Positions 3,655-56,815 of a DNA stretch of 64,000 nucleotides are shown here, in pieces. The DNA is from Persicaria tinctoria (taxonomy: Eukaryota; Streptophyta; Magnoliopsida; Caryophyllales; Polygonaceae), in NCBI GenBank assembly GCA_037127255.1, contig JBANSL010000004.1, forward strand, positions 29,354,467 through 29,418,466. The letters run 5' to 3'. Both the position numbers and the translations under genes were made by a program. The notes below the pieces were generated by a model. It ran no database searches. It saw only the letters and a program-made list of their open reading frames with translations, and was not told the DNA's origin. Within the stretch, counting starts at the first letter, position 1. Every line of letters begins with the position of its first letter.

Positions 3655-6009
3655 TCATTTCCATGAGCCAAAATCAATAGACTGAAGAGATATGTGACCA
3701 AAGAAGAGGTCTTTCAAATGTTCTTTACACAACCCAATTCGCCTTCGGTTCAAGCTGGGATGTATGCAGGTTGTAAACCCAGTTTTCCATCCAGGAAATT
3801 TCTGTCTTTCCATCACATGAAGGGTGTAAACACATGGTGCAGCAGCCGAACATCCGACAACAAAGCAACCACAAGGCCGTGATTGGCTCACCAGCCTCGC
3901 AAGAGACAATGCACACAAACCACTGTAAGATGTGCCATATGACAATGGCATGTCATCATCGGATGTAGAAGAATCAAGGATCTCTTTGCCTGTCTCATGT
4001 TCTATCTCAAGTGTTGATGGAATTCCAACGAGTTCGACATCAAATCGTTTCTCAATCTCATTTTCATGGATCCGGTACTTCAATGCAAGAGTTCGGACAC
4101 AAGACTTCCTCACTTCATTTGAAATGATCACCTTCAACTCATCAAAGTTGCTGCAGTCACTATACCATTTAAGCCATCGGCACACGAGACCAGAGTACCA
4201 ATCAATGATATGGCTGCTATCCAGCAAAACCAGCAGAGGGGATGCACGGCCGTATCCTTTAGCATTGGTCAGCCTATATCGTAAAAGACGTTTCTTGATG
4301 ACATTAACTGGAGCTATAACTTCAGTGGAAACACTGTGTTCCCCAGATGAGCCAGAGCTAGGAATGAGGGCAAGAAGAGACTTTGTTTCCATGGAAACGT
4401 AATCTTCTATGCATTTCTGGAACTCATAGAATGATTCTCTTAATTCTGGTGGGAGAGAAGGCTCAGTAATGTACTTAGACAAAATAGATTCGACATCAAT
4501 TGCAGCTTTTACGTTCACATCTTGCATCCATATCTTTACTAATTGCTTGTACCAATGATCCGTCTCCATACCAGCTTTACGATAGTAAGTGATTTTTGTC
4601 AAAAGAGAACTGCTGTCAGCTAGATGTTCAATCTCGGACTCTTTCACTTTCTTTAAACCATGAGCCAACCATTTTTTCCCGATTCTAACAGTCCCTGCAT
4701 CCCAAATTTCTTGCTTATGTGAAGCAAATAACTGCACTTTTTCCTTCAATTTGTGAACAGCTCTTACTGCTGGAGTTTCTTGAACAGTTCTTTTAAGCAA
4801 TGTTCCAATAAACCTAAGTCCACGAGTACTGTCACAAGGTAATACTTCAATGCCCTCACCAAGATCCAAGTGAAGAGCATTCTTCAAGAAGTCCTCAATA
4901 TCAGACTTCAATGCAAGTGCAATACCTTCAGGACCTGAAAGAGCCAGAAAAATCTCATCCATGAAGCGACAACAATAAATTCTGGGAGCAGATTTGTTCT
5001 CATCAATTCTGTTCACATTTTGATCTTTCAAATTCCTCCTGAACCAGGAACGCAGTTTTGAGTGAGCACCGTTTTGATGGGCACCGGAGACTGAGACAAG
5101 AGCCTCATATCTCAATGAAAGCCGATAAAATTCACGATCAAATATGTCAAGATATATATTCATCAAAATAGCAGACAAAACGCCCTCCTGTGGGAGACCA
5201 TGAGCTTTAGGGAACCCACCGAATTCTAGATTAAGCACCTGCGCATCAAACATGCTTCGAATACTGGCATACAACTGTGCATCATCAATCTTATCCTCCA
5301 TAGTAGAAACAAGCTTGTCTAGCACTTGTACATCAAGCCTTTTTCCTAGTATCACAGTAAACCACCAATCCGGATTAGAAACCTCCTTGGTAATGAACTT
5401 AATGGCAGAAGTGTGGCCTCTACCACTTCGACCACCATGCGAGATCTTTGAGAAGTGAGGCCTATATACAACTTCCAACACTATCCTCATGGCTTCTTGG
5501 ACCACCTTCAGCTTTAACATGGGAAGAACTAGGACTTCTTTATGGGCACCCTTTGTGGACACAGAAAAAGTGTTGGCCTTGGTGTCAAAAGTGCCATTTG
5601 CAATCTCTTCTGCCAATGACTCGAAGGCGATATCATCATCAAATTCAGATGATATATCGACGTTAGAGTTCACTCTAAGGGAATTATATGCATCCTGGAG
5701 AGTTTGAGGAACGGCTACAACATTGGCCATGAGTTCCCTAAACTTTCCATTTGTAAACTGCTCCTTCACCCTCCTCTTGATTCTTAGTTCGAATAACCTC
5801 TTCATCTCCGCTCTACTCCGAGGCTTTCTATCCTCTAAACACCTTGAAGATTCATCAACCAGACAAGCTAAACTCTCTGCCAAATTCATTTTTACAGTAC
5901 CAGCACCAGCAAATTTATCCTCTTTATGAACATTCCCCATCAGAGTGGAATAAAGTTCAAAACCTAGTTCTCTCACTGACCTCATTCCTGCCATCGGAAA
6001 CAAAAACAA
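3655..6009 (-). CDS. nuclear-encoded mitochondrial group II intron maturase-like protein (nMAT family)
   Basis: The family promotes splicing of group II introns in plant mitochondria, mostly in nad transcripts. The 784-codon frame shows a degenerate reverse-transcriptase region, with a GLPQEGVLSAILMNIYLD block (about 271-288, RT4-like) and CCRFMDEIFLAL (346-357) where an active enzyme has YADD. A maturase domain X follows at about 575-660, ending KSCVRTLALKYRI. The C-terminus is Cys/His rich (C713, C715, C720, C726, C748, then GLCKEHL at 759-765) and resembles the HNH-type endonuclease of group II proteins. The YADD loss fits a splicing-only role. The N-terminus probably comes from an upstream exon: an acceptor (GATGGCAG) at 5988-5989 would start this exon at 5987. 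I cannot tell which nMAT paralogue it is. Confidence 0.85.
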   Translation of the reverse strand: MFLFPMAGMRSVRELGFELYSTLMGNVHKEDKFAGAGTVKMNLAESLACLVDESSRCLEDRKPRSRAEMKRLFELRIKRRVKEQFTNGKFRELMANVVAVPQTLQDAYNSLRVNSNVDISSEFDDDIAFESLAEEIANGTFDTKANTFSVSTKGAHKEVLVLPMLKLKVVQEAMRIVLEVVYRPHFSKISHGGRSGRGHTSAIKFITKEVSNPDWWFTVILGKRLDVQVLDKLVSTMEDKIDDAQLYASIRSMFDAQVLNLEFGGFPKAHGLPQEGVLSAILMNIYLDIFDREFYRLSLRYEALVSVSGAHQNGAHSKLRSWFRRNLKDQNVNRIDENKSAPRIYCCRFMDEIFLALSGPEGIALALKSDIEDFLKNALHLDLGEGIEVLPCDSTRGLRFIGTLLKRTVQETPAVRAVHKLKEKVQLFASHKQEIWDAGTVRIGKKWLAHGLKKVKESEIEHLADSSSLLTKITYYRKAGMETDHWYKQLVKIWMQDVNVKAAIDVESILSKYITEPSLPPELRESFYEFQKCIEDYVSMETKSLLALIPSSGSSGEHSVSTEVIAPVNVIKKRLLRYRLTNAKGYGRASPLLVLLDSSHIIDWYSGLVCRWLKWYSDCSNFDELKVIISNEVRKSCVRTLALKYRIHENEIEKRFDVELVGIPSTLEIEHETGKEILDSSTSDDDMPLSYGTSYSGLCALSLARLVSQSRPCGCFVVGCSAAAPCVYTLHVMERQKFPGWKTGFTTCIHPSLNRRRIGLCKEHLKDLFFGHISLQSIDFGSWK

Positions 6010-7450: not shown

Positions 7451-8307
7451 TCTTGTTTGCTTGTGCAAGATTTATTTGTTTATTATCAAATAAAACAGTG
7501 GAAATATAAAAAATTAATTTTTTTTTTCCAGGTGCTCGAGCACTCCCAGCTCCGCCACTGCCTCACATTCATCTGCTTTCAATTCATGGAGATTGGAGAG
7601 GGAAAGAGATGGAGGAGTAGTTTGGGACGATGTCTTCAACGATAGGAAGTAGGCTGCCCATACTTTAAAATGAGAAATTGGACAGTCCTGCTTGGGCCTG
7701 GACTTTAAATTTAATTGTATATCAATTTTATTCGGAAGTTTTCGCGAGGTACACAACTTTTTTGCATATTTCGTGTGATACTCCTAGGGTTTTGATTGTT
7801 TTCGCCTCCCTTCAGTGTTAAACTTAGGAGTGGACACGGGACGGGATTGAGCCGGGACGGGACTCGTCCCGCGAAATTTTTACGGGACGGGATTAACACT
7901 TTTTTTTCGGGACGGGATCAGGACGGGATGTCGTATGGACGGGACGGGATCGGGACGGGATGGGCCTTGTCCCGCAAATAAAAATAATAAAATATTATAT
8001 AAATTTGCAAAGTGAAAAATGCTTTCATGATTTATTAATCTGTATAATATGTTGAATACTATATTCTTCTCAACTATATTACTCAATATTATTATTATTA
8101 TTATTATTATTATTATCATACTATTATTAATTTATACAATGATTGTATAATTAATTATAATGTTCAACATATTTGGCTACATTATCTTATAACTAGATCA
8201 GGACGGAAAGGGATTGAGACGAGATTCACCAAATACTGTCTCATTATCGATTGATATTTGGGAAGAATACCGTATTTAGCTATTTGCCTCTTATAGCTCT
8301 AAATGGG

Positions 8308-8308
<1 letters not shown>

Positions 8309-8375
<67 letters not shown>
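8309..8375. repeat. (TAA)n microsatellite, 5' target of the non-LTR element
   Basis: About 22 uninterrupted TAA units run straight into GC-rich sequence at 8376. The abrupt change marks the 5' junction of the inserted element. TAA units reappear at its 3' end (about 12,050-12,086). Confidence 0.9.
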
Positions 8376-8739
8376 GGTGCGGAGGGCTGAACAGGTGCGA
8401 TCGGCGGTCGGCCGGCGCTGGCGACACCACCACCACCGGCGTGCTCCCCTCCCTCCGACGCACCTCCCGAGCCCCTCCGACCTCCCCCTCTCCCTCCTTG
8501 CAGAACCCCGTCCCGCACCCTCCCTCCTCCTTCTCCGGCGCCTCTCCGCCGCCTCCGGCCACCCCTGGCCACGCCGCTGCCGACAGTAGACTCAGCGCGC
8601 CGTGCCGCATCTCCCCGCACCATCTATTTGCCCCAACTCCAATGTTTCGAAAATCAGAACCCTAGCCCTTGTTTGCACTAGTGTGTTAGCCCTTGATTGC
8701 ACTGGTAGAATTCGGGCTCGTCGGGCTTGATTTGCCGCC

Positions 8740-9933
8740 ATGTCGGTCCCTAAGGAACGTTTTCTTTGCCCTTTTGTTAGCCTCCATAATTGCCCCAACG
8801 GTGGTGGTCGTGGACTTGTCAGAACTGCCTTCTTACGTCATTTCAAGGATAGGCATGGTTCCGTCATCGCCTCCGTTGACACTTGTTCACTTTTGTCGTC
8901 TTCTCCGGCCGTCTATGCCGCTGCTGAGGCTACTTTCCGAAGGTTGAACGTGTGGTTATGTGGTGTTTGTTGTTCCATTCACACGTTACGTTCTCCATGC
9001 CGTCATCCCGATGGAGTTGTTGTTTCCCCGCCGGACGATGGTGATGGTAATGCTCTGTTTTTCATTTTCAATATTGATTGTCCTGTTTTGTCGCCTTCTA
9101 TGCCTGTGCCAGGTTCTGTTTTGTTGTCCCCTGTTTCGCTAAATGGGAGTGCTCCACGTTTAATTGTTCCACGTGTGGATTCTTCTGATAGTGGGACCTC
9201 GCGGGTTGATTTTGGATGGGATTTGAGTACTTTTGATCGTCTTTTGGTCAAGGGACTACGTACAGTTAAGTTCGTACCGCCACGTTGTCGTCTTGGTTTT
9301 GCTCGGGCTCTTAAAGGGGTGCTTGACCATGTTATTGCCGCCCCTGATGACACTGCTGTTTGGGTTCGGTTTCTGGCTATGTCCATCTGTGTTTTGCGTG
9401 CTTTTGTACCACGGTGTAGTAGCGATCGTCGATCGGGTGTTCGACGTACTCGTCAGAAGGAGTCGATTGCGAGTGCTCTTGTTGATTGGAGCACTCCGGG
9501 GGGTGACATTGGGTTGCTTAGGGCTGCCTTGAGGGCAGCCCCTGTGTCCTTCAGCGAGGGTGTTGGGGATGATGATGAGCCTCACACACCGGAGCTCAAC
9601 CTCCGTCAATGCCGTAAGAAGATTTCTGATGGGCATTTCACTGCTGCTATGCGGGTTCTCTCTTCTTCCGGTGTTGCTCCTTACTCTACTTCTACTTTGA
9701 TTGCGCTTCGGGAGAAGCACCCTGATGCCCCTCTCCCTGTTTTGCCTTGTGGTTTCACCCCTCAGCCTTCTATTATTGCTCGCCCGCCCATTGTTTTGGA
9801 TTCCATAAGGAGTTTCCCGCGTGGTACTTCTTGCGGTAGGGATGGGCTCAGGGCCCAACATCTTTTGGATTGTTTGAGTGGTGCGGCGGTTGCTGTTTCT
9901 GATGAGCTTCTTGTTTCCATTACGGGGTGGTGA
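8740..9933 (+). CDS. N-terminal part of RLE-type LINE polyprotein (zinc finger plus linker)
   Basis: The 397-codon frame starts MSVPKERFLCPF. C10, C18, H34 and H39 make a C2H2-like finger, a usual DNA-binding feature at the N-terminus of R2-group proteins. The C-terminal part (FPRGTSCGRDGLRAQHLL) is the block that normally precedes RT motif 1. The frame stops at 9933 in a G-rich run while the same protein continues in another frame from about 9924. I therefore read it as a frameshifted single ORF, not a two-ORF element. The product is presumably inactive unless frameshifting or another copy supplies the RT. Confidence 0.7.
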   Translation: MSVPKERFLCPFVSLHNCPNGGGRGLVRTAFLRHFKDRHGSVIASVDTCSLLSSSPAVYAAAEATFRRLNVWLCGVCCSIHTLRSPCRHPDGVVVSPPDDGDGNALFFIFNIDCPVLSPSMPVPGSVLLSPVSLNGSAPRLIVPRVDSSDSGTSRVDFGWDLSTFDRLLVKGLRTVKFVPPRCRLGFARALKGVLDHVIAAPDDTAVWVRFLAMSICVLRAFVPRCSSDRRSGVRRTRQKESIASALVDWSTPGGDIGLLRAALRAAPVSFSEGVGDDDEPHTPELNLRQCRKKISDGHFTAAMRVLSSSGVAPYSTSTLIALREKHPDAPLPVLPCGFTPQPSIIARPPIVLDSIRSFPRGTSCGRDGLRAQHLLDCLSGAAVAVSDELLVSITGW

Positions 9934-12011
9934 ACATCTTCTTGGAGGGTCGGTGTCCATCTGCTCTCGGGGAGTATGTTGCTAGTGCCCCTCTGACTCC
10001 CCTGGTCAAACCAGGGGGTGGTATCCGCCCTATTGCCGTCGGCACGATCTGGAGGCGCCTTGTGTCTAAGGTGGGTGCTTTCTTGGTTGGGCCTCAGTTA
10101 TCTGGGTATTTTAGGGACCTGCAGTTCGGAGTTGGTGTTTCTGGAGGTGGTGAGGCCATTTTGCATGCCTTAAATAGGCTTGTGGAGTCTCGTGGCTCTG
10201 AGATGGGTCTTTCTATGTTGTTGGTGGACTTCCAAAATGCTTTCAACTTGGTTGATCGCACTACTCTGCTTTTGGAGGTCCGTCGTCAGTGCTCTGGCCT
10301 CTCGCGGTGGGTCGAGTTCTGTTATTCTAGCCCTGCTCGGCTCTACTATGGGGAGCACTGTCTTTGGTCTTGCCAAGGGGTTCAGCAGGGTGATCCCCTT
10401 GGTCCGCTGCTCTTTGCTTTGGTCTTGCATCCTCTGTTATGCAAGATCCGGGATTCGTTTGATTTATGCTTGCAGGCTTGGTATTTGGATGACGGTACTA
10501 TTGTTGGAGACACTCTTGTGGTTGGCCAGGTTCTTGATATGATTATGTCTAATGGTCCAGCGCTTGGGTTGCACCTTAACGTGGATAAAACTGAGGTCTT
10601 CTGGCCGGTTGTGGATCCTAGGGGCTTGGTGCCTGGTGTTTTCCCTGCCCTTATTGCTCGCCCTGTTTCTGGCGTTACGGTTTTGGGGGGTCCTGTCAGT
10701 ACTTGCCCTGTTTACATCGCCGAGATTGTTGCGACTCGGGTGGCCAAGACCATTGAGCTTATGGATCTTGTTGCCAAACTTGAGGATCCGCAGAGTGAAC
10801 TGCTTTTGATTCGAGCTTGTTCCGGTATCTCTAGACTCTACTTCACCTTGCGTACTTGTCCGCCGGATGCCGTTGTCCCAGCTCAGTCTACCTTTGATAG
10901 TGCTCTCCGTGTCTGTTTAGAGCGTATTGTGGCTGCTTCTGGACCCGGGTTTGGTGATTGGCAGTGGAGATTGGCTACTCTTCCGTTTGAGTACGGTGGG
11001 CTTGGTGTTTATGCTGTTGGTGACGTCATGCATTATTCTTTTCTAGCCTCTCGCCTGCAGTCTTCTGGGTTGCAGTCTTCGCTCCTCCGCTTTGCTGGGT
11101 TGCCCATGGGTGAGGGACCCTCTTTCGATGCTGCGCTGTGTGACTTCAATGGTCTTACCGGTTCTGATTTTAGTCGTGATTCTTGCGAGTTCGCTGCCCC
11201 CAAACTTATGAAGAAATTGGCAGATGTGTACTTCGCCCGGATTGTGGCTTCTTCGGAGTCGGTTTTCTCATTGACCCCGCGGCATGTGGTGTTGTGGAGG
11301 TCTCAGCATGGGTCTCATTCATCTGATTGGCTCAGAGCAGTTCCTATTTCTGGGCTCGGTCAGACCATGAATGGTAGGACTTACAGGTCTGTCCTCTGCT
11401 ATCGTTTGGGTATCCCTCTTTTTCGTGCTGGTCTTCCTTGCTCTGCATGTGGTCGGGTTTTTGAGGATGACACTTTTGGGGATCATGTTGTGTCGTGTTC
11501 GAGTTCCATTGGGCTCAAACATTGGCATAATCTTGTCCGTGATACCCTCTTCGACATTTGCTTCCGTGCTGGGATCTCCTCGGGGAAGGAAGTGGACATC
11601 GGTGTTGTTGACAGTCTTGGCAGACCTCTTAGGCCCGCTGACATTCTTCTTTACTCTTGGGATCGGGGTCGAGATGTGTGTGTTGATATCACGGGATCCT
11701 CTCCCCTCACTCAGACTTGCTTGGCCTCCTTCGCTCCTGGACGGTGCGTTCTCGACGCAGCGCGGCGTAAGTGCACCAAGTATCGGGATGTGTGCTCTGC
11801 TGCTGGTTATGGGTTTTTGCCTTTTTCTTTCTCCTCCTTTGGTGAGCTAGATGGGGATGCGATTACGCTTCTGGGACGGATCCGCTCCTTCTCTTTAGCC
11901 TTAGATTCTAGTTCTCGTCTAGCTGCTCATATTTTTACCAGAGTTTGTTTTTCCATTGCTAAGGGGGTTGGCGCGCAGCTTGTTTCTCGGCTGCCCGCTA
12001 ACTTCTTGTAA
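9927..12011 (+). CDS. reverse transcriptase plus CCHC and restriction-like endonuclease of the LINE
   Basis: This 694-codon frame opens at a GTG overlapping the previous stop, so it is probably not an independent start. Motifs: PLVKPGGGIRPIAVG (RT2), DFQNAFNLVD (101-110, catalytic Asp), GVQQGDPLGPLLFAL (151-165), AWYLDDG (184-190, YxDD box), GLHLNVDKTEVF (214-225). Near the C-terminus C505, C508, H520 and C524 form a CCHC knuckle. RPAD (569-572) and CVDIT (585-589) fit the PD-(D/E)xK-like nuclease of R2-type elements. The expected role is target-primed reverse transcription: nick the target and copy the RNA there. The frame is otherwise open, suggesting a recent copy. Confidence 0.85.
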   Translation: MVNIFLEGRCPSALGEYVASAPLTPLVKPGGGIRPIAVGTIWRRLVSKVGAFLVGPQLSGYFRDLQFGVGVSGGGEAILHALNRLVESRGSEMGLSMLLVDFQNAFNLVDRTTLLLEVRRQCSGLSRWVEFCYSSPARLYYGEHCLWSCQGVQQGDPLGPLLFALVLHPLLCKIRDSFDLCLQAWYLDDGTIVGDTLVVGQVLDMIMSNGPALGLHLNVDKTEVFWPVVDPRGLVPGVFPALIARPVSGVTVLGGPVSTCPVYIAEIVATRVAKTIELMDLVAKLEDPQSELLLIRACSGISRLYFTLRTCPPDAVVPAQSTFDSALRVCLERIVAASGPGFGDWQWRLATLPFEYGGLGVYAVGDVMHYSFLASRLQSSGLQSSLLRFAGLPMGEGPSFDAALCDFNGLTGSDFSRDSCEFAAPKLMKKLADVYFARIVASSESVFSLTPRHVVLWRSQHGSHSSDWLRAVPISGLGQTMNGRTYRSVLCYRLGIPLFRAGLPCSACGRVFEDDTFGDHVVSCSSSIGLKHWHNLVRDTLFDICFRAGISSGKEVDIGVVDSLGRPLRPADILLYSWDRGRDVCVDITGSSPLTQTCLASFAPGRCVLDAARRKCTKYRDVCSAAGYGFLPFSFSSFGELDGDAITLLGRIRSFSLALDSSSRLAAHIFTRVCFSIAKGVGAQLVSRLPANFL

Positions 12012-12086
12012 ACATTCGGTTGTTTGATTTCTATACTATTTGGAGTTTATAATAAATAATAAAAAAAAAATAATAATAATAATAAT

Positions 12087-12427
12087 GCCACGTGTGTATT
12101 GATGTGACGGGATCCTCCCCCTCGACTCAGTCTGGGATGTCTGACTTTGTGCCCGGTCGTGTTGTTGTTGATGCTGCTTAGCGCAAGTATGCCAAGTATC
12201 GTGATTTGTGCACGACGGTTGGTTATGGTTTCCTACCCTTCTCCTTCTCTTTGTTGGGAGAGTTAGATACGGATGTTGTAGATTTGCTGAAGCGGATCCA
12301 AAAATTCTCGGTGTCTCAGGATGCCGGAGCCCGTGCTGCAGCCTATATTTTTACTAGACTTAGTTTTGTTATTGCTAAGGGGGTGGGAGCCCAGATTGTA
12401 TCTCGACTGCCCACTAATTTCTTGTAG
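12087..12427 (+). pseudogene. 5'-truncated second copy of the RLE-type LINE
   Basis: Directly after TAATAATAATAAT the sequence matches the end of the nuclease region (CGTGTGTATTGATGTGACGGG) and continues to the same C-terminus, ending SRLPTNFL then stop at 12427. An in-frame TAG sits near 12179. It is clearly diverged from the full copy at many codons, so it is a separate, older insertion or a sister lineage. TAA repeats follow it. Confidence 0.85.
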
Positions 12428-12434
12428 TAAGATT

Positions 12435-12832
<398 letters not shown>

Positions 12833-12989
12833 GCGGGACGGGACGGGATTTGCGGGATCCCACCGGGATCGTCCCGCGTTTCGTCCCGCATAATTTTTGC
12901 GGGACGGGATTCGCTATTTTGTCCTAAATCCCACCGGGATCGTGACGGGATCGGGATTTGCGGGATTTGTGCCCACCCCTACAAAATTG

Positions 12990-21124: not shown

Positions 21125-22608
21125 TTATACTGTGTTTTAAGAGTTGCACGACTGTGTTTTAAGAGTTGCACGACTATGTTATAAGAGTTGCACGACTCTG
21201 TTGTAAGAGTTGCACGTCTCTGTTGTAAGAGTTGCACGACTCTTATATTTGCACGACAAAATGTTAAAAAAAAAAAATTAGATGTGATTCATATTTGCAC
21301 AACTTACGGTTATATTTGCACAAAATGCTCTTATTTTTGCTCAACAATTCTTCATTTTTGCACAACAATCAAGACTTGTGAAATTGTGTCTCCACATAAT
21401 CTTATTTTTTGTAAATATAATTTTATATTTTTTTAATAGATTATTGCACAACACGGTCTTATTTTTGCTCATCAATAGAGTAAAATTGCACAACATGGGG
21501 GATTGGTGAAATTTTGCTCAGCATTATCTTATTTTTGCTCACTAATAGGTTATTTTTGCACAACAATCGAGACTTGTGAAATTGTGCTCAACGTGATTTT
21601 ATTTTATTTTCTCTCAATATAATTTCATACTTTCTCAATAAACTATTGCACAACATCATCTTATTTCTGCTCAACTATAGGTTATTTTTGCACAACAATC
21701 GAGACTTGTGAATTTTTTCTCAACATGATCTTATTTTCTCTCAATATAATTTCATTCTTTCTCAATAAATTATTGCACAACATGCTCCTATTTTTGCTCA
21801 TCAATACTTTATTTTTGCACAACTAGTGGTGAAAATTAGTGCTGACACTGATATTAGTTACAATTAGTGCTGACACTGATATTAATTACAATTAGTGCTG
21901 ACACTGATATTAGTTACAATTAGTGGTGAAAATGTGCACGACTCTGGTGTAAGAGTTGCACGACTGTGTTTTAAGAGTTGCATGACTGTGTTTTAAGAGT
22001 TGCACGACTTTGTTGTAAGAGTTGCACGACTCTGTTGTAAGAGTTGCACGACTCTGTTTTAAGAGTTGCACGACTCTGTTGTACGAGTTGCACGACTCTG
22101 TTTTAAGATTTGCACGACAATCGAGACTTGTGAATTTATTCTCAACGTGATCTTATTTTAAAAAAGTGCTGACGTGAAAAAAAAATTATTTGAAAAAAGT
22201 GCTGACACAAATAGAATAAAAAGTGCACAAATTAGATTAAATTTGCACAACTTATGATTAAATTTGCACAATGTCCTCTTATATTTGCACAACTTACTCT
22301 TATTTTTGCTCAACAATAGGTTATTTTTTGCAAAACAATCGAGATTTTTGAAATTGTTCTCAACATGATTTTATGTTCTCTCAATATTATTTTAAGAGTT
22401 GCACGACTCTGTTGTAGGAGTTGCACGACTATGTTTTAAGAGTTGCACGACTCTGTTTTAAGACTTGCACGACTCTGTTGTAAGAGTTGCACTGCTCTGT
22501 TTTAAGAGTTGCACGGCGCTGTTGCAGGAGTTGCACGACTTTGTTGTAGGAGTTGCACGACTCTGTTGTAGGAGTTGCACGACTCTGTTGTAGGAGTTGC
22601 ACGACTTT
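21125..22608. repeat. GAGTTGCACGACTC minisatellite and TGCACAA-rich region
   Basis: Arrays of about 22-bp units (AGAGTTGCACGACTCTGTTGTA and variants) lie at 21,140-21,240, 21,930-22,115 and 22,390-22,608. They alternate with degenerate sequence rich in TTTTTGCACAAC and TTTTTGCTCA. Frames through the arrays are repeat artefacts. Confidence 0.85.
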
Positions 22609-22976
22609 GGATTGATAATCGAAGAACCCTAATTCCGTTAAGGGTTTCTTCAATTCTATATTCAATCTGATTTAATTCAATAGAACTACAATGTTTAAAT
22701 AGAAAACCTAAGAACCAATTCTACCGTGCAAGATAGAATTTAGGTTGATAAAGATAGAAATTTAATCCTAAAGATAACTAAACCTAGAAGATAAAACTTA
22801 ATCTAAAATCCTAACCATCTTATTTAATCTAACTAAGAAATACTAAAAATAAGCAATTCTATAATTAAACTCCAACTAACATAGGAGTTACTAAAAATAG
22901 AATATATATAAAAAATAAGAAATATAAATAATAAAATAATTAACGCCGTTTCTTCAACGACTCCCAAGGTGGAGCC
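22609..22976 (-). mobile_element. inverted partial LTR of the gypsy-derived family
   Basis: Read on the minus strand it matches the LTR sequence at 16,480-16,752 and 33,260-33,535, from GGCTCCACCTTGGGAGTCG to ATTATCAATCC, with an extra segment of about 60 bp. It is truncated at the start, and no internal sequence or target duplication was seen. Confidence 0.75.
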
Positions 22977-24350
22977 TATAAACAGACAATAATTGCACAA
23001 CATGAGGGATTGGTGAAATTTTGCTCATAAACGACTTTGTTTTAAGAGTTGCACGACTCTCTTGTAAGAGTTGCACGACTCTGTTTTAAGAGTTGCACGA
23101 CTCTGTTTTAAGAGTTGCACGACTCTGTTATAAGAGTTGCACAACTCTGTTTTAAGAGTTGCACGACTCTCTTGTAAGAGTTGCACGACTCTGTTGTAAG
23201 AGTTGCACGACTCTGTTGTAAGAGTTGCACGACTCTATTGTAAGAAATGCACGACTCTGTTTTAAGAGTTGCACGACTCTGTTATAAGAGTTGCACAACT
23301 CTGTTTTAAGAGTTGCACGACTCTCTTGTAAGAGTTGCACGACTCTGTTTTAAGAGTTGCACGACTCTGTTTTAATTAAGAGTTGCACGACTCTGTTATA
23401 AGAGTTGCACGACCCTGTTTTAAGAGTTGTAAGAGTTGCACAACTCTATTTTAAGAGTTGCACGCCTTTGTTGGAAGAGTTGCACGACTCTGTTGTAAGA
23501 AATGCACGACTCTATTTTAAGATTTGCAGGACAATCGAGACTTGTGAATTTATTCTCAATATGATCTTATTTTAAAAAAGTGCTGACGTGAAAAAAAAAT
23601 TATTTGAAAAAAGTGCTGACACAAATAGAATAAAAAGTGCACAAATTAGAATAAAATGCGCACGACTAATATTATAAAGTAAAAAAAATTGTTATCCATG
23701 TAGAAAAAAAAAACTTGATTTGGATCATATTTGTGAAATTGTTATCCAGGCTTGATGGAATTGTTCGACATCATTTGATCAGCTTATGATTCATTTGTCA
23801 TGTGCTTCTTCGATTCTTTGTGAAATTGTTATCCATGCTTGTGCAACTCTAAAAAAAGTGCTGACATGGGAAAAAAAGTGCTGACACGGAAAAAAGTGCA
23901 ACTCTAAACTCTACTTGGATCATATTTGCACAATTTATGGTTATATTTGCACAAAGTACTCTTATATTTGCACGATAAAAAGTTAAAAACATAAAATAAA
24001 TAAAAACTAGACTAGGGTCATATTTGCACAACTTATGATTAAATTTGCACAACGTCCTCTTATATTTGCACAACTTACTCTTATTTTTGCTCAACAATAG
24101 GTTATTTTTTGCAAAACAATCGAGATTTCTGAAATTGTTCTCAACATGATTTTATGTTCTCTCAATATTATTTTAAGAATTTGCACGACTCTCTTGTAAG
24201 AGTTGCACGACTCTGCTTTAAGAGTTGCACGACTCTGTTGTAAGAGTTGCACGACTCTGTTGTAAGAGTTGCACGACTCTGTTGTAAGAGTTGCACGACT
24301 CTTGTTTTAAGAGTTGCACGGCTCTTGTTTTAAGAGTTGCACGGCTTTGT
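22977..24350. repeat. second large GAGTTGCACGACTC minisatellite block
   Basis: Roughly 22-bp units fill 23,035-23,520 and 24,180-24,350, separated by TGCACAA-rich sequence containing AAAAAGTGCTGACACAAATAG repeats. Unit variants (GACTC, AACTC, GGCTC) mix without long homogeneous runs. Confidence 0.85.
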
Positions 24351-24786
24351 TTGCTCGTTTATTATACAAGTTTGAAGCAAATTGAAACATACAACATTAA
24401 TTTAACCCGTTTGCTCATTTATTATACAAGTAGCTTGAATTTATAATGAAGTTACATAGAAATTCTATGACAGCAAAAAAAATCAAGGTACTTTATTCAT
24501 CTTGACCAAAAAAAATTTGCTTTATTCAGTAAGTGCCTATTTGAATGAGAAGACACCCCACTGGAAGTTTGTGGATCCAGATAGAGTACAACTTATCTAT
24601 TAGTAGTACATTACATGTCACTAGAAACTGTAGGTCTTAACTAACACTTGCCTAATTTCAATTCACAGTGTCTCAGAAACACATTTTGTGGCCACCATTG
24701 CCAACTACTGATGACTAGTGGAATTACTAATGGATCCGAACGATCCAATTCATCACCGAACCCCCTTCCAACTCTTCCTCTACTTT

Positions 24787-33822: not shown

Positions 33823-34402
33823 GAAATACAAGAGCTTAAGCAAGATCACGCATCAGTTTAGCAATTGGCCGGCCTAGTCGATTGCTATACATCAGTATGA
33901 GTCGAGACAGATCTGTCTTTTTTCATGTCCTTTCGAATATCGGGTCAAAATGAGTCGAGCTCGTGTTCAGATTCGTGTTGCGCATGACGCTAAATTTTCG
34001 GGTTCGATCGAATCTGGGTTCAGATAAGTCGGATCAGATTTTCGGGTTGGGTCAGATTTTGATACAGAGAAATGAATTCATGATTAACATATCCTAACCA
34101 ATGGATAAAGTTATGTAGATGGGGGACCAGTGTGACCATGCCAACTCTCACAGTCACAGCCCCAAATATCCAGTAAATTGATAAAGCCACCACCACACCT
34201 CCCCTTTCTGCCCAATCTTTGTTTCCTTGTTTATTCTTTCTTCTCCAACCTAGAAGATCTGCACTTTCTCTTTTTCTGTCTATATGAACAGCTTTGTTTT
34301 GGGGGATTCAGTTCAGCACCCACTCAATTTTACCATGAATCTCTTGTAAACCCATGAGAGGAGAGGAGATCGAATAAAAAACAAACAAATTAAACAGCCA
34401 AA

Positions 34403-35662
34403 ATGTCAATCCCACATTTGTTCAGATGCCCAATAAGCCTAGATTTGTTCATAGACCCGGTTACACTTTGCACAGGCCAAACCTATGACAGGCCTTGCAT
34501 TGAGAAGTGGATCTCTTCTGGTAATCTCACCTGCCCAGTTACAATGTTGAGGCTCAATGATCTCTCCATGGTCCCTAACCACACTCTCCGCCATCTGATC
34601 CGCCAGTGGCGCGATCAGACGGCTCAGACTCCATCTCTCCTTGATGCTGATCATGAGCATGATGGCTACTTGGCTGCACTCAAGCAAACCCTTGAGTCCC
34701 AACAACCCCTTTGGGAGATGAAGCTCCAAGCCCTCAAACAAGTCAAGGCTTTGTCTTTGGAGCTACCATGTGGAGAAAATGAGGGTTTGATCAGATTTGG
34801 GTTCTTCCCATTGTTGCTAGAGCTGTCATTTAGCACTTGGGCCCCCAAAAGATTGGAGCTTGTGGAGTTGGCACTCACCACTGCTGTTAAGCTAATGCCA
34901 TTTAGTGACCATGGATGCTTAAATGTGCTCAAAGAAGACACAAAGATTGAATCTTTAATAGCTTTATTGGAACAAGGCACTCCCTTGATCAAGATCACCT
35001 TGTGCCATCTCTTGGAGGATGTTTTATCACCATCATTTTCTACTCAACAAACCAAGGGATTGTCTTTATTGATAAGAAAATCAGGCAGCATTCAACGGTC
35101 GATAATGAATCTAATCCATCTCAATCCCAACAATGAAGATGGCAACGAAGATGAAGATGAAGATGGCGATGAAGATGTCTCAGAGGGAGGGGTCAAGGTC
35201 CTGCTAGCATTATGTAGAAATTGTGTTGATCACAACCACCACCAAGGCCTTGAAAAATTAGTCCAATTAGGGGCAGTCAACACCTTGGTAAGATACATTT
35301 TGAGAGGTCTAAACATGGGTAGTGGGGTGGGTCTTGTGGCGGCGGCGGCAGCTCTAGAGGTGGTGGTGGAGACGGAGGGCGGGAAGGAGGCGCTGTTAGG
35401 AGAAAAGGATGGGGTAAAAGCACTAGTGAAGATGGTGTTTAGGGTTAGTGATCACCAAGGAAGTGAGAGTGCAGTGAAGAGTTTGATGGGCTTGTGTTGT
35501 GAGTCAGTTAAGGCAAGGGAGGAGGCAGTGAAAGCTGGGGTTCTGACACAGTTGTTGCTCTTACTGCAGAGTCAGTGCAGTGGGAGGGCAAAGACAAAGG
35601 CCAGGGTGTTGCTGAAGCTGCTTAGAGCCATGTGGGCTAAGGACCCAGTTGGTAGAAATTGA
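34403..35662 (+). CDS. U-box domain E3 ubiquitin ligase with ARM repeats (PUB family)
   Basis: A single-exon gene of 419 codons. Residues about 5-78 form a plant U-box: FRCPISLDLFIDPVTLCTGQ, TYDRPCIEKWISSGNLTCPV and PNHTLRHLIRQW. The U-box recruits the E2 and has no zinc-binding cysteines. The rest is leucine-rich and fits ARM repeats (for example VKSLMGLCCESVKAREEAVK near the C-terminus), with a Glu/Asp run at about 246-258. Layout and length match the short U-box/ARM PUB proteins (PUB22-28 type) that act in stress and immune signalling in the cytosol. Start: first ATG, in a good context after CCAAA. I cannot say which paralogue. The frame is intact and probably functional. Confidence 0.9.
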   Translation: MSIPHLFRCPISLDLFIDPVTLCTGQTYDRPCIEKWISSGNLTCPVTMLRLNDLSMVPNHTLRHLIRQWRDQTAQTPSLLDADHEHDGYLAALKQTLESQQPLWEMKLQALKQVKALSLELPCGENEGLIRFGFFPLLLELSFSTWAPKRLELVELALTTAVKLMPFSDHGCLNVLKEDTKIESLIALLEQGTPLIKITLCHLLEDVLSPSFSTQQTKGLSLLIRKSGSIQRSIMNLIHLNPNNEDGNEDEDEDGDEDVSEGGVKVLLALCRNCVDHNHHQGLEKLVQLGAVNTLVRYILRGLNMGSGVGLVAAAAALEVVVETEGGKEALLGEKDGVKALVKMVFRVSDHQGSESAVKSLMGLCCESVKAREEAVKAGVLTQLLLLLQSQCSGRAKTKARVLLKLLRAMWAKDPVGRN

Positions 35663-50556: not shown

Positions 50557-50576
50557 AGCCTATTAGCTCAAATCGG
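50557..50576 (+). other. half of the tRNA-like end (A-box part)
   Basis: AGCCTATTAGCTCAAATCGG matches the first 20 nt of the tRNA-like fold at 43,854, then changes directly into GTGCAACTC repeats. It looks like a broken copy of the same tRNA-like-ended element. Confidence 0.6.
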
Positions 50577-51425
50577 TCGTGCAACTCTTAAAACACAGTC
50601 GTGCAATTCTTACACCAGAGTCGTGCAAATTTTCACCACTGATTGTAACTAATATCAGTGTCAGCACTAATTGTAAGTTGTAACTAATATCAGTGTCAGC
50701 ACCAATTTTCACCACTAGTTGTGCAAAAATAACGTATTGATGAGCAAAATTATGAGCATGTTGTGCAATAATTTATTGAGAAAGTATGAAATTATATTGA
50801 GAAAAAATCATATCATGTTGAGAACAAATTCACAAGTCTCGATGGTTGTGCAAAAATAAGCTATAGTTGAGCAAAATATAAGATGATGTTGTGCAATAAT
50901 TTATTGAGAAAGTATGACATTATATTGAAAGAAAATAAAATCATATTGAGCACAATTTCACAAGTCTCGATTGTTGTGCAAAAATAACCTATTGTTGAGC
51001 AAAAATAAGATGATGTTGAGCAAAATTTCACAAATCCCCTCTTGTTGTGCAATTTTACTCTATTGATGAGCAAAAATAAGACCGTGTTGTGCAATAATCT
51101 ATTAAAAGGTATAAAATTATATTTACAAAAAATAAGATTATGTGAAGACGCAATTTCACAAGTCTCGATTGTTGTGCAAAAATAAAGAATTGTTGAGCAA
51201 AAATAAGAGCATATTGTGCAAATATAATCGTAAGTTGTGCAAATATGAATCAAATCTATTTTTTTTTATTGATTTTTTTTAACATTTTACCGTGCAAATA
51301 TAAGAGTACGATGTGCAAATATAACTGTAAATTGTGTAAATATGATCCAAGTCTAGTTTAGAGTTGCACTTTTTTTCGTGTCAGCACTTTTTTCTCCCAT
51401 GTCAGCACTTTTTTTAGAGTTGCAC
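50577..51425. repeat. TGCACAA-rich degenerate repeat region in MULE-2
   Basis: Repeats of TTGTGCAAAAATAA, TTGAGCAAAAATAAG and CACAAGTCTCGATTGTTGTG. It is the reverse complement of the MULE-1 region at 21,270-21,800 and again shows the two elements are inverted relatives. Confidence 0.8.
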
Positions 51426-51576
51426 AAGCATATACGACCCAAAAACATCTTGCATATACGACTAGAGCAAATGGCCTTCTGCTTGGATACAAACTAGGCA
51501 GATAGAGGTTGTAATCACATATGCTAAAAAATCTTGCAAGAAGCCCTCATTGTTAGTGTGAAAAGATTACTAACAC

Positions 51577-51709
51577 CTCCTAAGAGACTCGGGTACTGTT
51601 GAGTGTCCTGTGATCTTGGTTTACAGGCTTCGGCATGAGACTTGAACTTTTGAAGCTCTGTCAGCACCTCGTCTTGCGGCTTGTACAACAGGTTGATTAT
51701 CCTCCAGAG
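51577..51709 (-). pseudogene. exon-like fragment, source unknown
   Basis: After GGCAG the minus strand is open through LWRIINLLYKPQDEVLTELQ and ends before GTGTTAG. A second frame (LEDNQPVVQAARRGADRASK) is also open, so the true frame is uncertain. Confidence 0.3.
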
Positions 51710-52064
51710 CTGCCATGGATGATCAGGATGAAATAGCAAAATATTAAAGAGAAAAAAAAGAGAGCATTAGTCTTGGGTCAGAATGTGAAGTGATCTTAGA
51801 AGTACTCGTCTTTATTCACGAGCATGTCGAATACAAGATAAAAGTTGAGACAAATGGGAAGATACAGATGCATATACATTAGTTTTTGACAAAAGAAATG
51901 GAGGAAAAGGATTGAAAAAGCATCTAGAATCACTCTCCTACATAAATATTTACATTAGCTTCACTCAAATCTAGCTTTGTGGATCCTAATTTATTCTTTA
52001 TTTTTCGAGTTGATTGAATGGTGACATGGTGTGTATGTTAGCAAAGTATATACAATAATAAGAG

Positions 52065-52190
52065 GCATGCAACTCTTCAAACAGAGTCGTGCAACTCTTA
52101 CAACAGAGGCGTGCAACTCTTACAACAGAGTCGTGCGAATCTTAAAACAGAGTCGTGCAACTCTTACAATAGAGTCGTGCAACTCTAAAA
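52065..52190. repeat. short GAGTCGTGCAACTC minisatellite
   Basis: Five to six units of about 22 bp (ACAGAGTCGTGCAACTCTTA) in the orientation opposite to the main MULE-1 arrays. Confidence 0.85.
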
Positions 52191-55914: not shown

Positions 55915-56815
55915 CAGCACAACTCATTCTTAGAAGTTGCACAACTCAGTCTTAGAAGTTGCACAACTCCGTCTTAGGAGTGGCACAACTCCGTCTTAAG
56001 AGTTGCACAACTCCGTCTTAAGAGTTGCACAACTCCGACTTAAGAGTTGCACAACTCCGTCTTAAGAGTTGCACAACTCCGTCTTAAGAGTTGCACAACT
56101 CCGTCTTAAGAGTTGCACAACTCCGTCTAAAGAGTTGCACAACTCCGTCTTAAGAGTTGCACAACTCCGTCTTAAGAGTTGCACAACTCCGTCTTAAGAG
56201 TTGCACAACTCGGTCTTAAGAGTTGCACAACTCGGTCTTTAGAGTTGCACAACTCGGTCTTTAGAGTTGCACAACTCGGTCTTTAGAGTTGCACAACTCG
56301 GTCTTAGAGTTGCACAACTCGGTCTTAGAGTTGCACAACTCGGTCTTAGAGTTGCACAACTCGGTCTTAGAGTTGCACAACTCGGTCTTAGAGTTGCACA
56401 ACTCGGTCTTAGAGTTGCACAACTCGGTCTTAGAGTTGCACAACTCGGTCTTAGAGTTGCACAACTCGGTCTTAGAGTTGCACAACTCGGTCTTAGAGTT
56501 GCACAACTCGGTCTTAGAGTTGCACAACTCGGTCTTAGAGTTGCACAACTCGGTCTTAGAGTTGCACAACTCGGTCTTAGAGTTGCACAACTCGGTCTTA
56601 GAGTTGCACAACTCGGTCTTAGAGTTGCACAACTCGGTCTTAGAGTTGCACAACTCGGTCTTAGAGTTGCACAACTCGGTCTTGCAGAGAGGCACAACTC
56701 GGTCTTGCAGAGAGGCACAACTCGGTCTTGCAGAGAGGCACAACTCGGTCTTGCAGAGAGGCACAACTCGGTCTTGCAGAGAGGCACAACTCGGTCTTGC
56801 AGAGAGGCAGAGACC
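55915..56815. repeat. 900-bp GAGTTGCACAACTC minisatellite with three unit types
   Basis: 55,920-56,290 has 22-bp units (AGTTGCACAACTCCGTCTTA). 56,290-56,682 has about 18-19 nearly identical 21-bp units (TAGAGTTGCACAACTCGGTC). 56,683-56,811 has 23-bp units in which the left arm is changed (CAGAGAGGCACAACTCGGTC). Because 21 is a multiple of three, frames on both strands stay open and give 7-residue repeat peptides up to about 200 residues. These are not genes. Confidence 0.95.

Follow-up and report, generated by a model that had tools for sequence, protein, structure and literature searches.

A frameshifted LINE between TAA repeats

We analysed a stretch of 64,000 nucleotides of Persicaria tinctoria DNA (contig JBANSL010000004.1, positions 29,354,467 to 29,418,466, hereafter the window) and found on its + strand a long interspersed nuclear element (LINE) of ~3.7 kb, which runs from 8376 to ~12070 when the flanking TAA runs are excluded from the element proper. 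We consider it highly probable that 8376-12070 is a frameshifted LINE with a predicted restriction-like endonuclease (RLE) after its reverse transcriptase (RT), and that its lineage likely inserts into TAA repeats by target-primed reverse transcription. Its untranslated regions (UTRs), its open reading frame (ORF) and its flanks are arranged as follows.

8309..8375 (+): pure TAA run of 22 units (22.3 copies of ATA, 100% match), putative target, directly before the element's 5' end
8376..8739 (+): 5' UTR, from reading of the sequence
8740..9933 (+): first part of the ORF, from the ATG at 8740 to where the RT begins, with two zinc-finger motifs; ends at the frameshift
8767..8856 (+): finger 1, C-x7-C-x15-H-x4-H, from the sequence; like a motif in relatives
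8959..9006 (+): finger 2, C-x2-C-x3-H-x5-C-x-H, from the sequence; identical motif in relatives
9906..9933 (+): overlap of the two frames in the ORF list, the zone of the single frameshift; relatives are unbroken here
9906..12011 (+): second part of the ORF, 701 aa, with RT, linker, knuckle and RLE
10008..10604 (+): RT core, Pfam RVT_1, E 5.6e-12
10482-10493 (+): YLDD motif, from the sequence
11439..11498 (+): CCHC knuckle, C-x2-C-x11-H-x3-C, residues 512-531, from the sequence
11514..11834 (+): predicted RLE, with H541, E562, P577-x-D579, D594 and K622xxK625Y626
12012..12070 (+): short 3' UTR and A/TAA-rich tail
12071..12086 (+): TAA run of 5 units at the 3' end of the element

The order of parts (finger, finger, RT, knuckle, nuclease block) is read directly from the sequence, and the N-terminal finger, the YLDD, the CCHC knuckle, the RPAD/D nuclease block and the TAA flanks that an earlier, sequence-only reading of this DNA had named were all found. 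To that reading we add the refinements that one frameshift splits the frame (8740-9933 / 9906-12011), that the element spans 8376 to ~12070, and that a second, truncated and TAA-flanked copy is present. The parts follow the identical order in three relatives, each of them a single predicted protein: P0005 (1062 aa), P0008 (1061 aa) and P0010 (Spinacia oleracea, 1035 aa). By eye, the first part of the window ORF is the counterpart of their N-terminal third. As P0005 occupies ~3.19 kb of a contig of 3,370 bases, an uninterrupted frame is almost certain for it. One or the other finger pattern, both of them loose, occurs in 19 of the 20 long rows from the plant search (17 when the odd matches P0022 and P0082 are set aside). 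The window copy carries a W at residue 540, the position of the R in the nuclease RH pair, where 65 of 69 aligned rows have R; together with the frameshift, this presumably makes it a dead copy. At the 5' end of the element, no ribozyme of the hepatitis delta virus type was recognised, four Rfam matches being at chance level and the best of them lying on the TAA run, and the first 101 bases folded no better than shuffled versions (z -0.46).

A predicted R2-like nuclease behind the reverse transcriptase

By Pfam, both the second part of the ORF and six long relatives matched RVT_1 only, and neither the window protein nor these relatives showed an endonuclease of the apurinic/apyrimidinic (APE) type ahead of the RT; NCBIfam returned for the window protein nothing but a group II RT match below cutoff. 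A single ORF and the lack of an APE domain ahead of the RT are features of RLE LINEs; the family shows the former in its single predicted proteins and the latter, by Pfam, in the six relatives. Using the single window protein or a profile of 13 rows, we obtained a significant R2 match in the RT alone. A profile of 69 sequences, searched against solved structures, gave R2 as the best match (E 1.5e-30), ahead of the best LINE-1 chain (1.6e-13) and of group II (6.9e-6), and it matched R2 in a second stretch comprising knuckle and nuclease, where the two zebra-finch R2 entries gave i-Evalues of 9.9e-5 and 1.3e-4. Weaker rows for this stretch were turtle R2 (0.016) and two Bombyx rows (0.41 and 0.32), so that two of the five R2 rows matched strongly in the nuclease. 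In the profile alignments, D594 falls on the second R2 aspartate (D1009 of Bombyx), while D579 aligns with D996 in one of the Bombyx rows (8gh6) and is off by one in the other four printed rows, which place P on P; the register of the first aspartate is hence ambiguous by one residue.

Structure prediction points the same way, an R2-like fold being predicted across the whole RT-linker-nuclease part. When the nuclease was modelled by itself, its predicted fold also matched influenza PA, bunyavirus-type nucleases and Prp8, all far below R2, which we read as the shared PD-(D/E)xK fold. Hence, the profile, the predicted fold and the order of domains support an RLE-type LINE rather than L1 or RTE, as the sequence-only reading had proposed, and the C-terminal nuclease for which that reading had suggested comparison with R2 structures has R2 as its best predicted match.

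We then compared the family with the published hallmarks of RLE LINEs, namely a catalytic Asp pair, KX2KY, and the RH and E residues (PMC5678591), in a census alignment of 69 rows (20 plant or plant-like and 49 others). The family carries them, W540 of the window copy being one exception: D579 is conserved in 67/69 rows, D594 in 68/69, K622 in 65/69, E562 in 68/69 and H541 in 67/69. In the window copy, RPAD lies at 11631-11642, the second aspartate (residue 594) 15 residues further and KX2KY at residues 622-626. Most plant rows, like the window copy, have the full KX2KY, whereas outside plants K625 is present in 6 of 49 rows and Y626 in 5 of 49. The published knuckle spacing of RLE LINEs, CX2-3CX7-8HX4C (PMC5678591), occurs in none of the 69 rows, 62 of which instead have CX2CX9-11HX3C. 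The RT motif likewise departs from the AF/YADD described as conserved in all non-LTR (long terminal repeat) RTs (PMC3774820), with Y193 in 64/69 rows and F193 in 5/69, L194 in 67/69 and the DD in 68/69. Apart from the published knuckle spacing, the family thus has the features of RLE LINEs.

Two insertions in TAA runs

Directly after the first copy, and likewise flanked by TAA, lies a second one.

12073..12092 (+): 20-bp direct repeat ATAATAATAATAATGCCACG, upstream copy; taken to be the target-site duplication of copy 2
12093..12460 (+): copy 2, 5'-truncated, with the RLE end and 3' UTR and an in-frame stop
12461..12480 (+): downstream copy of ATAATAATAATAATGCCACG

The coding part of copy 2 (12093-12426) has 64% amino acid identity to residues 591-701 of copy 1, and the divergence between the copies is 31% at the DNA level and 36% at the protein level, with a ratio of nonsynonymous to synonymous change (dN/dS) of 0.20 over 110 codons at a dS of 1.3, which is near saturation. 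Given this divergence, the two insertions count as separate events from diverged lineages, both associated with TAA. The repeat ATAATAATAATAATGCCACG is exact and contains four TAA units and GCCACG, and elsewhere in the window no place matches the ATAATAATAATAATGCCACG-bearing end over more than 6 bp. We read it as the target-site duplication of copy 2, with the TAA run beside GCCACG predating the insertion.

Both insertions in the window thus sit in TAA runs, one of them with a duplicated TAA-containing target. As cut sites that touch a TAA/TTA run of at least 4 units make up only 294 of 64,001 in the window, and as 1,986 relatives were found at E<=1e-5, the observation is not due to chance. 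Two points weigh against TAA targeting: the sample comprises two insertions within one window, and outside 8000-12850 none of 59,150 cut sites touches a TAA run of at least 4 units, so that the elements may themselves have generated part of the repeat. The latter point leads to an alternative in which insertion is not TAA-specific and the TAA-rich tails seeded a microsatellite that then expanded. This is favoured by the confinement of such runs to the surroundings of the elements and by the A/TAA-rich ends of both 3' UTRs, again at the expense of TAA targeting. A tail, however, could not have placed the 22 TAA units upstream of the full-length 5' end unless another element was once there, and the four TAA units with GCCACG in the 20-bp repeat make the TAA run older than the insertion if the repeat is a target duplication. 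We therefore regard the by-product explanation as unlikely, though not negligible, and conclude that the lineage likely targets TAA repeats, on a thin sample. Of the sequence-specific TAA insertion proposed from the letters alone, the part that stands is two insertions out of two with one duplicated target, within the limits of this window.

For insertion into TAA repeats, we envisage the following course, by analogy with R2. The protein would bind its own RNA, the N-terminal fingers may assist docking on the DNA, and the RLE would nick one strand inside the TAA run. The free 3' end could then pair with the UAA-rich tail of the RNA and prime cDNA synthesis, and a second nick ~20 bp away would produce the target duplication. 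An RT that stopped early would leave 5'-truncated copies such as copy 2.

The surroundings of the TAA-rich block were also inspected. By eye, GGGACGGGAT-type repeats flank it on both sides (7836-7978 and 12833-12980), with a 31-bp stretch in common at 90% identity (7864-7894 / 12881-12911). It is possible that the TAA block is nested in another repeat.

Hosts and phylogeny

Relatives were collected in three protein searches: with the window ORF (1,986 proteins at E<=1e-5 among 7,998 scored), with a non-plant seed, L002 (244 at E<=1e-5 among 7,993) and with a Ranunculus relative (260 at E<=1e-10 among 7,995), the best 120 of each set being listed. The hosts include at least 14 eudicot genera (Saponaria, Silene, Spinacia, Tanacetum, Helianthus, Tagetes, Cichorium, Artemisia, Taraxacum, Smallanthus, Trifolium, Orobanche, Papaver and Ranunculus), in agreement with the flowering-plant occurrence stated in the earlier reading. 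Among the matches listed, the nearest to the window protein is from Saponaria officinalis (89%), and no monocot, gymnosperm or fern is named, the plant listings being dominated by Tanacetum. The plant relatives are labelled at source as 'reverse transcriptase domain-containing protein' or 'hypothetical protein', or bear misleading names. Non-plant relatives among the matches listed from the L002 search come from the sponge Ephydatia muelleri, the diplonemid Diplonema papillatum and many environmental contigs, and profile searches of viral contigs with the window protein and three family alignments found no relative. Five contigs (L001-L005) filed under bacterial metagenome-assembled genomes (MAGs), L002 under a Verrucomicrobia MAG, hold relatives in long ORFs and are probably eukaryotic DNA contaminating those MAGs; as they contain little sequence beyond the ORFs, target sites are not visible there. 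By eye, the related element on L005 (305-3106, 3007-7059) has a separate upstream ORF with a CCHC-like motif before the RT ORF, which differs from the single-protein plant form.

In an RT tree of 55 rows, with three R2 rows as the sole representatives of a named RLE clade, all 14 plant or plant-like rows formed one clade (100/100), and the family was separated from R2 by a branch with 99/96 support. Depth in this tree should not be over-read, since the outgroup and a few rows sit on very long branches. Within this sampling of clades the RT stands apart from R2; the R2/R4 membership initially assigned to it is not borne out. The relatives in sponge, diplonemid and environmental contigs might point to contaminating DNA or to an element recently carried in from a microbe or animal. 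Yet relatives lie on contigs of 57-447 Mb in seven plant genera (Saponaria, Silene, Spinacia, Papaver, Ranunculus, Cichorium and Trifolium), the plant or plant-like rows are one clade, and the window also holds an intron-maturase-like gene and a plant U-box gene, which makes this origin extremely improbable. An RLE LINE lineage resident in flowering-plant chromosomes is hence supported.

With more rows, a plant tree placed the Caryophyllales (window, Saponaria, Silene and Spinacia) in one clade (96/99) next to Tanacetum. A second lineage was made up of Orobanche, Trifolium and further Asteraceae, and a Ranunculus copy lay next to it; this topology is compatible with the persistence of two or more old lineages among eudicots. 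A pairing of Tanacetum with Spinacia in the first plant tree (83/54) was superseded by the Caryophyllales clade. Two Trifolium repens sequences, P0263 and P0264 (the latter representing 21 sequences), nest among Asteraceae copies (97/97), P0263 having 79-81% amino acid identity to Cichorium and Artemisia. Holding the Asteraceae together was not rejected by the approximately unbiased (AU) test (p-AU 0.194), and horizontal transfer into Trifolium is therefore a possible lead, not significant by that test.

Relation to described elements

The elements of Bombyx mori, zebra finch and turtle that give the best structural matches are R2, which inserts into ribosomal DNA (rDNA) and is said to be absent outside animals (PMC5035012). 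The present family instead has TAA flanks and, in place of the ADD and KPD of R2, YLDD and RPxD along with its own knuckle form; no ribosomal RNA match was found in the 64-kb window at Rfam gathering scores. The family is not an rDNA-inserted R2.

The target itself recalls Dong, for which (TAA)n is given in most insects, molluscs and cnidarians (PMC7998251). A plant branch of the R4/Dong clade, by descent or by horizontal transfer, would account for this identical target, also seen in the two window insertions, and for the broadly alike architecture of RT and RLE. Against such a branch, the same paper describes R4/Dong without N-terminal zinc fingers, and Dong with a diverged SANT/Myb-like domain, whereas finger motifs, although loose patterns, are present here (a comparison by description only). 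An R between the first two knuckle cysteines, conserved in many RLE clades, of which R2, Dong, NeSL and Utopia are named (PMC5678591), is found in at most 3 of the 69 rows, and the RT motif is YLDD, not AF/YADD. We accordingly consider R4/Dong membership improbable. A home in HERO, or in another described RLE clade so far unrecognised in plants, is somewhat easier to entertain, though still doubtful. HERO includes non-specific and microsatellite-targeting families (PMC4640811; compared by description only), it is not among the clades named as examples of those that conserve the knuckle R (PMC5678591), and the family has relatives in a sponge; against it stands the absence of the general RLE-LINE knuckle from all rows, and none of these points is decisive.

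Set beside these readings, we see an evenly balanced case for a deep, undescribed RLE LINE clade, marked by YLDD, RPxD and CX2CX9-11HX3C and reaching from eudicots to sponges, diplonemids and microbial eukaryotes, whose plant branch would join L1 and RTE as a third kind of LINE in plants and would have arrived at the TAA target of Dong independently. Plant L1 and RTE resemble the family as plant LINEs with an RT and 5'-truncated copies. A 2022 review gives L1 and RTE as the only land-plant LINEs, with an endonuclease and often an RNase H (PMC9033089), neither of which Pfam found in the six relatives. Prp8, which also combines an RT with an RLE-like core, gave a weaker predicted-fold match than R2 and is a host splicing protein without a CCHC knuckle (PMC5678591).

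Such elements were not expected in flowering plants. Our literature search, which covered titles and the starts of abstracts and lay outside Repbase and subscription papers, found no plant RLE LINE among the papers listed, which is no proof of absence; together with the review's restriction to L1 and RTE, this accords with the view of the sequence-only reading that the lineage is under-described. If the interpretation is correct, it would extend R2-type insertion machinery to plants, add a sequence-divergent R2-type nuclease that possibly prefers microsatellites, and name a likely cause of TAA-repeat disruption. Since R2 proteins are under development for DNA insertion (PMC12222951), a plant-native relative would be a useful test object.

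Neighbouring features

Approximately 2.4 kb upstream of the LINE, a 784-aa ORF on the - strand (3655-6009) matches type II intron maturase (E 1.5e-8), with an RT match below cutoff, and represents a nuclear intron-maturase-like gene. On the + strand, 34394-35662 encodes in one open frame a plant U-box protein with an ARM region (E 1.1e-29). Units of 21-22 bp akin to TTGCACGACTCTGTTGTAAGAG and GCACAACTCGGTCTTAGAGTT recur in arrays across the window, by eye in both orientations, at 21129-24351, 50576-52186 and 55917-56798.

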